Below are positions 11,892-21,478 of a stretch of 64,000 bases of DNA, piece by piece (the stretch's first letter is position 1; the number at the start of each line of letters is the position of its first letter). Source of the stretch: an uncultured Opitutia bacterium (GTDB lineage Bacteria; Verrucomicrobiota; Verrucomicrobiia; Opitutales; Coraliomargaritaceae); NCBI GenBank assembly GCA_937136395.1, contig CAKZOI010000072.1, positions 62,001 through 126,000 on the forward strand, given 5' to 3'. The translations under genes were made by a program, and so were the position numbers. Under the pieces are notes generated by a model, which saw only the letters and a program-made list of their open reading frames with translations, had not been told where the DNA came from and made no database searches.

Positions 11892-12704
11892 CTAAGTCGA
11901 CTTGCTGAGCGCTCCGCCAGCCAATAGTCCCTGCATCTTGCTCTCAAGAGCAGAAACGGTCGCAGCGGTATCACCTAAATTCTCAGCAATACAATTTACA
12001 ATGGCACTGCCGACAACGACACCATCGGCGGCCTGAGCGACTGTTTTAACATGATCTGCATTTGAGATACCGAAACCAACCACAACGGGTAAATCTGTGT
12101 GCTGCTTAATCACGTCCACACGCTCACGGATGCCCTCGGACATCGCGGCCTGCTCACCAGTGACTCCCTCACGAGAAACATAGTAAACAAAACCCGTAGT
12201 CGCCTTTGTAATAATCTCTAAACGCTCATCCGGTGTGGTCGGCGCGACAATAAAAACTGTGCCCAAGCCATGCTTCTCGCAGGCTGCCAGATGCTCACCA
12301 GCCTCTTCAGGTGGCAAATCGAGTGTCAACAATCCGTCCACGCCCGCAGCCTTAGCTTTCTCAGCATAGGCATCGCTCCCCTGAGAATAGACCAAGTTAT
12401 AGTAAGTGTAAAAAACAAGCGGCACCTGGCTGAACTCGCGAATCGCACGAACCAAGTCCAAAACACGCTCACTCGTCATACCATTTTCCAATGCACGCTG
12501 CGCCGCCAACTGATTGGTCAATCCATCCGCAAGCGGATCAGAGAAAGGCACACCCAACTCAAGCACATCGACTCCATTCGCCAAAATGGCACGAGCCGAC
12601 TCGACAGAGGTTTCAAAATCGGGATCGCCTGCACATAGGTAGGCAACAAAAGCAGCGCGGTTTTCAGATCGAGCTTTCGCAAAGGCTTGTTCGAGACGGG
12701 ACAT
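11892..12704 (-). CDS. trpA: Tryptophan synthase alpha subunit
   Basis: Cleaves indole-3-glycerol phosphate to indole and glyceraldehyde 3-phosphate; the beta subunit then joins indole to serine. The 270-aa TIM barrel shows the catalytic region ELGVPFSDPLADG (Glu and Asp of the active site), FIVAPTTPDERL, YYVSREGVTG and VVVGFGISNADHV. The start is the ATG at 12704 (MSRLEQAFAKAR); the open frame extends upstream but the extra residues are unlike the family. No trpB or other trp gene lies in the window. The EIIA-DAC gene precedes it by 70 bp on the same strand. Confidence 0.96.
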   Translation of the reverse strand: MSRLEQAFAKARSENRAAFVAYLCAGDPDFETSVESARAILANGVDVLELGVPFSDPLADGLTNQLAAQRALENGMTSERVLDLVRAIREFSQVPLVFYTYYNLVYSQGSDAYAEKAKAAGVDGLLTLDLPPEEAGEHLAACEKHGLGTVFIVAPTTPDERLEIITKATTGFVYYVSREGVTGEQAAMSEGIRERVDVIKQHTDLPVVVGFGISNADHVKTVAQAADGVVVGSAIVNCIAENLGDTAATVSALESKMQGLLAGGALSKST

Positions 12705-12774
12705 AAAAAACAAGTTGAAAGTTGCTTGTGGTTCAATGCGAGTTTTTTCAGCACCTATCCTCAAGTTTCAAGAA

Positions 12775-14133
12775 TCAACTATTTCGAATCAAGGCTTTCT
12801 CAATCAGTGGCAACATTTCACCACGACGGAAAAGCGTCACTTGGCCAGTGCTACCTGAAACCACAATACAAAGACAATCCACTGCCTGAGAAATCGAAGC
12901 CGCTGCGGCATGTCGGCTGCCGAGGCCACTCGGTAAATTGTGCGTATAGTCTGGCGCATGGATCAACGATCCCGCGGAGACTAACACACCATCGCCACGT
13001 ATAATAAAGGCACCATCAATCGAGGACAGCTCTTTTACCGTCTCATCCATGAAGGGGTTTAAAATATTCCGATCCTCATCTTTGTATCCGTAGAATGGAT
13101 TCAGAATCAATGGTTTCGTATACTCGGAAATTTTTGCCGCATTACCTAATGCAAATAAACAACCGACTGGATGCCCCTCTCGACCTTCCACAGCGAGCTC
13201 TGTCGCAATCGCCAACACACGCTCGATTACTTCAGGTTTCACGCTGGCAGGCAGCATATCCGTTTTCTGCATCAGCATCGTCTGAAACTCGCGTTCAATA
13301 TCTACCACAGTAATACTGTCGAATTGATTACTTTGCGGCAGGCCGCCCACACAGCAAAGACGATCATGACTGCCGAAAATGCCGCGAGTCAGTCCTATCA
13401 ACACAGCACTACGTAACTGCGAGAAGCGATGATTGCTGTAAGAACGAATCGGTATAACCGCATCAATGGTGGAGTGCTCGGTAACACCTTCAGATGCCGC
13501 ATGGGCAATCAACACCGTGTTAAATTGGTTAAATAAATTTCCAACTTCAACCCCCCCACCAAAGGTATCTCCAAAGACTAATACCGATGTGCAATTAGCT
13601 CCTTTAGCAATCTTTGCCGCCTCTTTCAGTATCAGGTTGTTAAAACGATTATGCTTTTGCTTAGGCGTAGTGCCATCACCCGCAAAAACAGCTTTCAATT
13701 CCTTGCGAAAAACAGGTAATTCCTTAGCCGCCTCCAGCCTCGCCATTTGCGCGTGATCTTGAAACACGCGTGCCAACGAAGCTAAACCATATAAATAGCT
13801 GCGGGCGTTTTTAGCAGCCAACAAAAGAAAGACGTAACGTATTTCTTGATATTCGTCTTGCCCGTCATACTTGAGACCATTCGAGCAACGACCGACCGCG
13901 ATCATATAAGGTCGACTCATTGAAACTCGCGCATGCGGCAAACAGACTCCGTTACCCAAGTAAGTCGTCATCTGCTTTTCACGATCCAGCAGCTCCTTAT
14001 GCAATTTCTTCTTGGTCAGCCCCTTCTCTTTTGAGAAATCACAAACGTCGAGCAATTCCGCCAATCCCGATTCGAAATCAGTGCTTTCGAGATCGATCAC
14101 ACGTGATTGGGCAATGTAACGGTCTATGCGCAT
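12775..14133 (-). CDS. PTS EIIA domain fused to DacZ-like diadenylate cyclase
   Basis: Predicted cyclic di-AMP synthase with an N-terminal PTS IIA domain. Residues about 1-150 resemble the fructose/mannitol EIIA family, with candidate phospho-His H67 in GNGVCLPHARV. The middle (about 165-300) has an alpha/beta character (ANCTSVLVFGDT) and recalls the pyruvate-kinase-C-like domain of archaeal DacZ. The C-terminus (about 300-452) is a DisA_N/DAC domain: EGREGHPVGCLFALG, then the catalytic DGA (about 373) and GSRHAAAASIS (Arg about 407), both needed for c-di-AMP synthesis. The His phosphorylation state could couple sugar or nitrogen PTS status to c-di-AMP, which is an inference. The ATG at 14133 is clear. 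Confidence 0.85.
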   Translation of the reverse strand: MRIDRYIAQSRVIDLESTDFESGLAELLDVCDFSKEKGLTKKKLHKELLDREKQMTTYLGNGVCLPHARVSMSRPYMIAVGRCSNGLKYDGQDEYQEIRYVFLLLAAKNARSYLYGLASLARVFQDHAQMARLEAAKELPVFRKELKAVFAGDGTTPKQKHNRFNNLILKEAAKIAKGANCTSVLVFGDTFGGGVEVGNLFNQFNTVLIAHAASEGVTEHSTIDAVIPIRSYSNHRFSQLRSAVLIGLTRGIFGSHDRLCCVGGLPQSNQFDSITVVDIEREFQTMLMQKTDMLPASVKPEVIERVLAIATELAVEGREGHPVGCLFALGNAAKISEYTKPLILNPFYGYKDEDRNILNPFMDETVKELSSIDGAFIIRGDGVLVSAGSLIHAPDYTHNLPSGLGSRHAAAASISQAVDCLCIVVSGSTGQVTLFRRGEMLPLIEKALIRNS

Positions 14134-14247: not shown

Positions 14248-14622
14248 TTATTTCTCCCACTCAATCGCCCCCTTCTTCAATTCGTAGATCAGTCCGAAAA
14301 CCAACACGAATAAGAAGAAGAAAACAGGCAATAGGATCGGTAAATTAACCAATAAAAATTCTCGGAAGACCAGCACCCACGGAATGAGGAAGACGACTTC
14401 GATATCAAAAAGAATGAATAACATCGCAGTGACATAGAACTTCACCGCAAAACGCGCGTGGCCAGATCCTTCTGCCAACATGCCACACTCATACGGACTA
14501 TCTTTTATCGAATTTGGCGTGCCGCGCTGCCCAAAGATATGCGACGCAACAAGAACAACCGCACCAATACCGGCTGCGATAGAAAATTGAACGAGTATCG
14601 GATAATAGTCCGCGATCTGCAT
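14248..14622 (-). CDS. nuoA: NADH-quinone oxidoreductase subunit A
   Basis: Small membrane subunit of respiratory complex I. The 124 aa have three hydrophobic segments. The family core is present: SPYECGM, then ARFAVKFYVTAMLFILFDIE with the conserved acidic residues, then VFLIPWV. The ATG at 14622 gives a normal start. Unusually it stands alone, with no nuoB or other nuo gene beside it. The DUF362 gene lies 27 bp upstream on the same strand. The rest of the complex is presumably encoded elsewhere. Confidence 0.93.
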   Translation of the reverse strand: MQIADYYPILVQFSIAAGIGAVVLVASHIFGQRGTPNSIKDSPYECGMLAEGSGHARFAVKFYVTAMLFILFDIEVVFLIPWVLVFREFLLVNLPILLPVFFFLFVLVFGLIYELKKGAIEWEK

Positions 14623-19384: not shown

Positions 19385-21478
19385 ATGTCAGCTGCGAAAA
19401 AGAAAACCGCCAAGAAGACAGTCAAAAAAGCTGCGAAAAAAGTAGCCAAAAAAGCACCCGCAAAAAAAGCGGCTAAAAAAACGCCTGCTAAAAAAGTAAC
19501 CGCTACAAAAAAGGCGGTCGCCAAGAAGGTGCCAGCTAAAAAGAAAGTTGCTAAAAAGAAAGCTGCATCAGCAAAAAAACCCGTAGCCAAAAAGAAAGCT
19601 GCATCAGCAAAAAAGCCCGTAGCCAAAAAGAAAGCTGCATCAGCAAAAAAGCCCGTAGCCAAAAAGAAAGCTGCATCAACCAAGAAGGCTACAGTTGAAA
19701 AAGGCGCCACCAAAATTACCAAAGCTGATACCGAAAAAGCGATTGAAGCAGCGGCTGCAAAGCTTCCGAAAAAACGCAAGCTTACCGCTAAAGCACAAGA
19801 CAGGCTTAACGAGCGTATTCGCACTTTGATCCGCCTTTCCAAGGAACAAGGCTTCCTCACCTACAAGGATATCAACAAAGCGCTTCCTGATAGCGTCAAC
19901 AATCCTGACGAAATCGAAAACGTCATTTCCATTCTTCAAAACCTCGAAGTCGAGATACTCGACGACAGCGAAGTTGAAGCCTATAAAGCACGGCTCGAAG
20001 AGACCGAAGAGAAGGAAGTGCGCACCTCTCAAAATGACATTCTCGACGACCCTGTTCGGATGTATCTCAAGCAAATGGGCCAAGTCCCTTTGCTCACTCG
20101 TGAAGAAGAGGTCGCCATCTCTAAACGTATTGAAAAGGCTGAACTACGAGCACAAGATGCACTATTCTCCACTGCGCTGACACTCGAATTTCAAAACAAC
20201 ATCGTCACGAAACTCCTCAACCGTGAAGAGCGATTTGACCGTGTTGTGCTCGATAAAAAGATCGAAAGTCGTGAAGCCTATTTCAATAGCCTACCCAAAC
20301 TGCTCGAACAGGCACACAAGTTGGGCGAACGCATTTACGCAGCATGGGATAGCCATGTAGCGGCGACCAAAGAAGGCAACGACCCAATCGCAAAACGCTC
20401 ACGCACTCGTATGATTAAATACGAAAACGAGCTGCGCCTCGTGCTGCGTAAGTATTGCCTAAAGCTAAAAGTCTTTGAAGAATTCCTCAATGATCTAACC
20501 CCAATCTACCGTGAAATCACGAGCCTTTACGAAGACATCGAGGCGGCTGATTTGGTATCGACTCGTCGTAAGACAAAACTAGACGTCGCCGCAATCAACA
20601 AACGTCTCGAAGCTCTCAAAACAGAATTCAAAATTGATACGAAAGAGTTCATGGAGATCATCCGTGAAGTGCGCACCGGTGTCCGAGAAGCACACAAAGC
20701 GAAGACTGAAATGGTCGAAGCTAACTTGCGCCTCGTTATCTCCATTGCAAAAAAATACACCAACCGTGGTCTCTCGTTCCTCGACCTCATTCAAGAAGGT
20801 AACATGGGCCTCATGAAGGCCGTTGAGAAATTCGAATATCGCCGCGGCTACAAGTTCTCAACTTACGCAACATGGTGGATTCGCCAAGCGATTACACGTT
20901 CTATTGCCGACCAAGCACGCACCATTCGTATCCCGGTCCACATGATCGAGACCTTAAACAAGGTGATGCAGGTGCAAAAGCAACTCCTCCAAGAGCTCGG
21001 TCACGAGCCTACCGCAGAGGAAGTTGCCGACGAAATGAACCTTCCTATCGAGCGTGTGCAGTCCATCATGAAGATGGCACAGCAACCGATCTCCTTGCAA
21101 AGCCCAGTTGGAGATTCCGACGACACCAACTTCGGTGACTTCATTGAAGATAAAGGGGCGGAAAATCCATACGACATGACTGCATACAGTCTTTTACGTG
21201 AGAAGATCACCGACGTCCTCGACTCCTTAACCGAGCGCGAGCGCCGTGTGCTTTCACTACGCTTCGGCCTAGCCGACGGCTACTCACGCACACTGGAAGA
21301 AGTCGGCCGCCAATTTAAGGTGACTCGTGAGCGAATTCGCCAAATTGAGGCCAAGGCACTCCGTAAGATGCGCCACCCGACGCGTATTCGCCAGTTGCAC
21401 GGCTTCTTCGAGGGTGATATCAATCTCGAAAAACCAGGCATGGACAGTATCAAACGCGAAAACGCGAAACATAAATAA
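19385..21478 (+). CDS. rpoD: Primary sigma factor RpoD with histone-H1-like tail
   Basis: Housekeeping sigma-70 factor, 697 aa. After about 100 residues of Lys/Ala/Pro-rich sequence that resembles histone H1 or AlgP tails come region 1.1 (about 135-215), region 1.2 ([22 protein letters not shown]), and region 2 with [33 protein letters not shown] and the -10 reading helix. Region 3 ([12 protein letters not shown]) and region 4 ([20 protein letters not shown]) follow. The tail carries a 12-residue tandem repeat ([12 protein letters not shown]). Such a tail could bind DNA or nucleoids, which is an inference. It lies 23 bp after dnaG, probably in the same operon. Confidence 0.97.
19553..19678 (+). 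repeat. 36-bp tandem repeat within the rpoD 5' region
   Basis: Four near-identical 36-bp units begin at 19553, 19589, 19625 and 19661, the last one partial. Each encodes Lys/Ala-rich [12 protein letters not shown]. The unit length is a multiple of three, so gain or loss of copies would keep the rpoD frame and only change the tail length. Confidence 0.9.

Follow-up and report, generated by a model that had tools for sequence, protein, structure and literature searches.

An EIIA-Fused Diadenylate Cyclase in Opitutales and Its Possible Control by the Phosphotransferase System

Introduction

A gene for a protein in which a PTS EIIA domain, a pyruvate-kinase-C-like domain and a diadenylate cyclase (DAC) domain are joined in one polypeptide was characterized in a stretch of 64,000 nucleotides (hereafter the window). 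The protein, here called DacD after the class to which it probably belongs, is predicted to synthesize c-di-AMP as a member of the DacZ/CdaZ superfamily. In the order to which its genome belongs, the fusion is the sole DAC of nearly every genome examined. The joining of this DAC to the acceptor domain of a PTS that seems to have lost its sugar transporter suggests that the carbon-energy state of the cell directly tunes c-di-AMP. The signals to which c-di-AMP synthases respond in the cell are, to our knowledge, largely undescribed. In DacD, a candidate input can be read in the sequence, namely a PtsN-like phospho-acceptor on the order's only c-di-AMP synthase. If the proposal holds, c-di-AMP would be tied directly to PEP and carbon flux, in a covalent version of the proteobacterial link between the PTS and potassium.

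The DacD class is already known. What is of interest is the mechanism, control of a DAC by an EIIA domain, which is put forward here as a proposal. Later censuses of DAC architectures reportedly list EIIA fusions too. No paper on an EIIA-DAC fusion or on EIIA control of a DAC was found in the open-access literature that was searched.

The Gene and Its Locus

The interval given for the gene in the initial annotation stands, since the ORF is exact there. The strand has been corrected: dacD is read from the minus strand, with its start ATG at position 14133, and a plus-strand reading of the interval was ruled out, as it is full of stops. The coordinates of the gene, its domains and its neighbors are collected in Table 1. 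The genome containing the window is 3.2 Mb in size and 99.96% complete, and its nearest named relatives are Opitutales/Puniceicoccaceae MAGs and Coraliomargarita sp. SDUM461004.

The gene for a NuoA-like subunit upstream of dacD occupies the same upstream, same-strand place in 32 of 42 dacD loci compared, distant families included. Other nuo genes are absent beside it in the part that was read. Downstream, trpA (likelier start, an in-frame ATG at 12704) is found in the same place in 20 of these loci, all from the window's own family. Elsewhere in the window (19385-21478, plus strand), an RpoD-like sigma factor is encoded whose N-terminal tail of about 100 residues consists of Lys/Ala-rich, histone-H1-like repeats.

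Table 1. Position of dacD, its domains, key residues and neighboring genes in the window
Feature	Residues (aa)	Position	Strand	Basis
dacD-type gene, EIIA - DacZ_P - DAC	452 aa	12775..14133	-	ORF, Pfam, full-length relatives
PTS EIIA type-2 domain	1-152 (Pfam core 30-138)	13678..14133	-	PF00359 E 7e-21
R51, active-site Arg of EIIA	51	13981..13983	-	53/54; role by Neisseria PtsN
H67 (LPHAR), predicted phosphorylation site	67	13933..13935	-	alignment to PtsN and MtlA IIA (phospho-His)
R69, active-site Arg beside H67	69	13927..13929	-	52/54; role by Neisseria PtsN
Y113, place of second active-site His (H111 of MtlA IIA)	113	13795..13797	-	alignment
DacZ_P domain, pyruvate kinase C-terminal fold	162-285	13279..13650	-	PF21755 E 3.5e-21
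DAC (diadenylate cyclase) domain	314-439	12817..13194	-	PF02457 E 5e-20
DGA motif	373-375	13009..13017	-	D373, G374 invariant in 54 relatives
RHAAA motif	407-411	12901..12915	-	R407, H408, A410 invariant in 54 relatives
NuoA/NdhC-like complex I subunit, directly upstream of dacD		14248..14622	-	PF00507 E 5e-30
trpA, directly downstream of dacD		11892..12764	-	PF00290 E 5e-89

Domain Architecture and DAC Class

All three domains of DacD were recognized by Pfam profiles at more than twice their curated cut-offs. PTS_EIIA_2 (PF00359) scored 75.1 bits against a cut-off of 27, DacZ_P (PF21755) 76 bits, and DAC (PF02457) 71.7 bits against a cut-off of 27. The EIIA domain that had been proposed from the letters alone was thus recovered as a significant match, the pyruvate-kinase-C-like middle turned out to be a curated family with the C-terminal fold of pyruvate kinase, and the DAC domain carries the DGA and RHAAA motifs as described. 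A further DacZ_P match, in genome G178, was considered as a DAC and rejected. It belongs to a pyruvate kinase, whose C-terminal domain it forms, and as such it supports the relation of DacZ_P to that fold.

The structure used for comparison is an AlphaFold2 model built from 20 sequences. It is of moderate quality (pLDDT 71.9, pTM 0.42), so the comparison drew on the folds of the single domains, and not on how these are arranged or how far H67 lies from the cyclase site. In the model, residues 1-152 match E. coli PtsN (1a6j) with a Z of 19.1 and an rmsd of 2.2 over 145 residues; PtsN proteins are the best matches (Z 18-19), with mannitol IIA at 13.9. Residues 159-287 match C-terminal domains of pyruvate kinases, with the highest Z (VIA, 13.8) for residues 345-472 of the M. 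tuberculosis enzyme (5wrp). The modeled C-terminal part was matched to DAC structures (2fb5, Z 14.5; DisA 9y9y, Z 13.7; CdaA, Z 13.3), and its matches include CdaA, CdaM, CdaS and DisA. By profile and by fold, far beyond chance and with conservation across the order, the three domains of DacD are real.

The DAC type was assigned by profile scores. When the DAC part was scored alone against NCBIfam, DacZ reached 104 bits, followed by CdaA (39.5), CdaM (35.6), CdaS (34.9) and DisA (30.7). The initial annotation had held that this domain resembles archaeal DacZ more than DisA, CdaA or CdaS, and on profile scores (104 bits against at most 39.5) it does. All scores against CdaA, CdaS, CdaM and DisA (27.8-39.5 bits) lie below the NCBIfam cut-offs of 188-225. 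The best-scoring family of DacD is the haloarchaeal DacZ equivalog NF041371, at 110.8 bits against a curated cut-off of 430, which places DacD in the wider DacZ/CdaZ group, outside the haloarchaeal equivalog. The order of domains agrees, in that the pyruvate-kinase-C-like domain directly precedes the DAC domain (PF21755 then PF02457), as in the DacZ/CdaZ superfamily.

Representatives of the DacD class have been listed from Lacunisphaera, Puniceicoccaceae, Coraliomargarita and other Opitutae (PMC6741144). The class name is that of Corrigan and Gruendling (2013), as it is used in PMC6741144. To judge by its taxon and by its status as the sole DAC, the window protein probably belongs to this class. 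The fusion is then no singular find, but most likely the order-wide class that already bears this name.

Distribution of the Fusion

The survey covered 57 related genomes. A DAC was found in 50 of them, with one per genome in 49 and two in the remaining genome (G010), and in all 50 the DAC, or the main one where there are two, is the EIIA fusion. In G046 the fusion is broken into two parts that lie on separate contigs, a split apparently caused by contig ends. In the sample of the phylum that was surveyed, this order holds nearly all occurrences of the domain pair, and a few lie in other families.

The second DAC of G010 (L080:5750-8024) is a DacZ-type protein of 296 aa that lacks EIIA, and a DUF2254 membrane protein is encoded directly after it on the same strand. 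An ORF of 818 aa on L086 was set aside, as it looks like a DacZ without EIIA whose frame has been over-extended, on a contig rich in GC. In G405 (L087:2710-8100), a dacD-like gene is clustered with genes for an APC permease-EIIA protein (618 aa) and a zinc-ribbon-EIIA protein (281 aa), with rlmN between.

The EIIA Active Site

The active site of Neisseria PtsN has been shown to consist of H67 with R51 and R69, and to be lined by L114, L117 and A121 (PMC1201152). All six residues are identical in DacD and bear identical numbers. H67, first singled out as a candidate phospho-His, aligns with the phospho-His of both PtsN and mannitol IIA. Residue conservation was counted over 54 distinct full-length relatives of DacD: H67 occurs in 52, R51 in 53, E52 in all 54 and R69 in 52. 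In a weighted analysis, with the relatives grouped into 13 clusters at 70% identity, these four residues rank with the most conserved positions of the EIIA domain, which on average is only moderately conserved.

The site differs from that of a phosphate carrier at one place. In mannitol IIA, H111 has been proposed to be necessary for the transfer of phosphate to IIB (PMC1201152). At the equivalent position, occupied by Y113 in DacD, none of the 54 relatives has a His (Tyr in 49, Phe in four, Leu in one), which fits a terminal acceptor and not a carrier.

In one genus, the fusion is retained with H67 changed to Ser and R69 to Cys (L085:5497-6873 in G197; L094:5479-6852 in G229), and T57 is changed too. 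That H67, R69 and T57 have changed together fits a site whose residues are lost jointly after it falls out of use. A loss of H67 together with EI was expected and was not seen, as both genomes keep EI. Coupling of the EIIA domain to the PTS is thus not universal, and the fusion can be maintained in the absence of the switch. The DacD of G197 and G229 is in effect a natural uncoupled variant that would be useful as a control. Another departure was noted in G042 (L092), a reduced genome of 0.9 Mb, in which dacD keeps H67 and has R51 replaced by His. Neither EI nor HPr was found in this genome by profile search.

PTS Components and a Second EIIA Protein

The initial annotation had recommended looking for genes of EI and HPr, and both are encoded in the same genome as dacD. 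The EI protein (586 aa) has all three EI domains and no extra N-terminal domain, so it is not a PtsP-type EI; HPr (101 aa) has the motif GIHARPA. In profile searches, 48 of the 57 relatives had EI and 49 had HPr. The search for EIIC covered one family, PTS_EIIC (PF02378), which is present in four relatives and absent in the other 53, the genome of the window included. As EI and HPr are present and PF02378 EIIC is mostly missing, the PTS of these bacteria looks regulatory.

The only other EIIA_2 domain of the window's genome lies at the C-terminus of a 749-aa protein with Na_H_Exchanger and TrkA_N domains (L075:3166-5412; G000:C21), and EIIA-bearing proteins of similar length (736-760 aa) occur in 23 genomes of the family. 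The His of the PH motif is kept in this antiporter EIIA. Its catalytic Arg is replaced by Gln in the window's genome and in 13 of 13 relatives read, which makes its phosphorylation doubtful and leaves DacD as the genome's only EIIA_2 protein with a full PtsN-type site.

Turnover and Outputs of c-di-AMP

The c-di-AMP hydrolase PgpH was found in 51 of the 57 relatives, including the window's own genome, whose PgpH sequence has the HD motif. Three genomes that are at least 90% complete lack a DAC: G053 and G054 lack PgpH as well, and G012 lacks the DAC only. Among genomes at least 90% complete, DAC and PgpH co-occur (Fisher p 0.005, uncorrected for kinship), which bears only indirectly on the predicted formation of c-di-AMP from ATP by DacD. 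In G054 (L079:1724-4924), a 184-aa EIIA protein is encoded directly downstream of a P-type ATPase that resembles Mg2+ transporters.

A c-di-AMP riboswitch is absent from the surveyed genomes except G052, a genome 50% complete in which no DAC was detected. This absence makes it more likely that the outputs of c-di-AMP are proteins. In other bacteria, c-di-AMP is a regulator of K+ and osmotic balance.

Proposed Mechanism and Alternatives

In the mechanism proposed here, PEP would phosphorylate Enzyme I, EI would hand the phosphate to HPr, and the EIIA domain at the N-terminus would receive it from HPr on H67. The phosphate would stop at H67, as EIIC of the usual kind and the second active-site His are both missing. 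The phospho-state of the EIIA domain would then reach the DAC domain via the pyruvate-kinase-C-like domain. The PEP/pyruvate state of the cell would thereby set c-di-AMP, which would most likely act on K+ and osmotic balance. The proposal draws on the observed set of three domains, the conserved active sites, the genes for EI and HPr, the lack of PF02378 EIIC, the status of the fusion as sole DAC, the co-occurrence of PgpH, and the EIIA domain on an antiporter in the same genome, seen beside the action of PtsN on YcgO. We infer the phosphorylation of H67, its effect on the cyclase and the output on K+, and we regard it as probable that DacD is a c-di-AMP synthase tuned by the PTS in this way. 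As to the direction of control, we lean only slightly towards unphosphorylated DacD as the more active cyclase, by analogy with PtsN, of which the unphosphorylated form is the one that binds a partner. Two observations count against a PTS-tuned synthase: G197 and G229 have lost H67 and R69 and keep EI, and G042 keeps H67 in a genome in which no EI or HPr was detected, with the reservation that its R51 is replaced by His.

A different role for the EIIA domain would be that of a docking module, one that brings the source of c-di-AMP to ion transporters or other partners depending on its phosphorylation, while the cyclase itself works independently of H67 phosphorylation. PtsN has been shown to work in E. 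coli by phosphorylation-dependent binding of YcgO (PMC11808508), and EIIA domains are found on or beside transporters in this order, as with the Na+/H+ exchanger, the APC permease next to dacD on L087 and the P-type ATPase on L079. In DacD, however, the EIIA domain is covalently attached and always N-terminal to DacZ_P (54 relatives), an arrangement that intramolecular control fits at least equally well, and docking is considered unlikely as the explanation. The retention of the full fusion without H67 and R69 in one genus (G197, G229) would agree with an EIIA domain that is a structural or oligomerization relic, one that accepted phosphate in the past and now mainly stabilizes the cyclase. 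Control of c-di-AMP would then fall to a ligand of the pyruvate-kinase-C-like domain; Pfam annotates DacZ_P as a probable sensor, and its fold is that of an allosteric domain. Yet the PtsN-type site is whole in all other clusters and is the best conserved part of the EIIA domain, which is not expected of a relic, and this explanation is judged quite improbable. It is very hard to credit that DacD contains a true sugar-PTS EIIA that passes its phosphate to an EIIB and carries the DAC as a passenger sensing transport: the EIIA family does take in fructose and mannitol IIA, and the NCBIfam FruA-type profile scores higher than PtsN (44.9 against 38 bits), but EIIC was rarely found within the range of the search, the equivalent of mannitol IIA H111 is never His, and the folds of PtsN match better than that of mannitol IIA.

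A direct relay from PEP through EI and HPr to DacD may control c-di-AMP across the whole order. Two regulators of K+ homeostasis, c-di-AMP and the regulatory PTS, which in other systems act apart, would then be joined in one polypeptide. The balance tips slightly in favor of this wider reading.

Comparison with Known Systems

DacD has its closest counterparts among synthases in archaeal DacZ and in CdaZ/DacY. DacZ and DacY/CdaZ have been described as one family with a pyruvate-kinase-C-like N-terminal domain and with members in bacteria too (PMC6741144). DacD has in common with them this domain followed by the DAC domain, for which NF041371 is the best match, and differs from them in the extra EIIA domain in front. 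With the DacD class itself there is nothing known to differ, and the genomes with this fusion as their sole DAC belong to the group from which DacD representatives have been listed.

With PtsN (EIIA-Ntr), DacD shares the fold (Z 19.1), the residues R51, H67 and R69, and a setting with EI and HPr and without the usual EIIC. PtsN is a free protein, whereas the EIIA domain of DacD is fused to a cyclase and carries a Tyr where the second His would stand. Potassium homeostasis has been described as a unifying theme of PTS-Ntr (PMC13104625). In E. coli, unphosphorylated PtsN has been shown to bind and inhibit the CPA1 K+/H+ antiporter YcgO (PMC11808508), and the presence of an EIIA domain on a CPA-type antiporter in the window's genome echoes this action of a regulatory EIIA on cation transport. 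The two cases differ in that the EIIA domain and the antiporter are covalently fused here, with Gln in place of the catalytic Arg.
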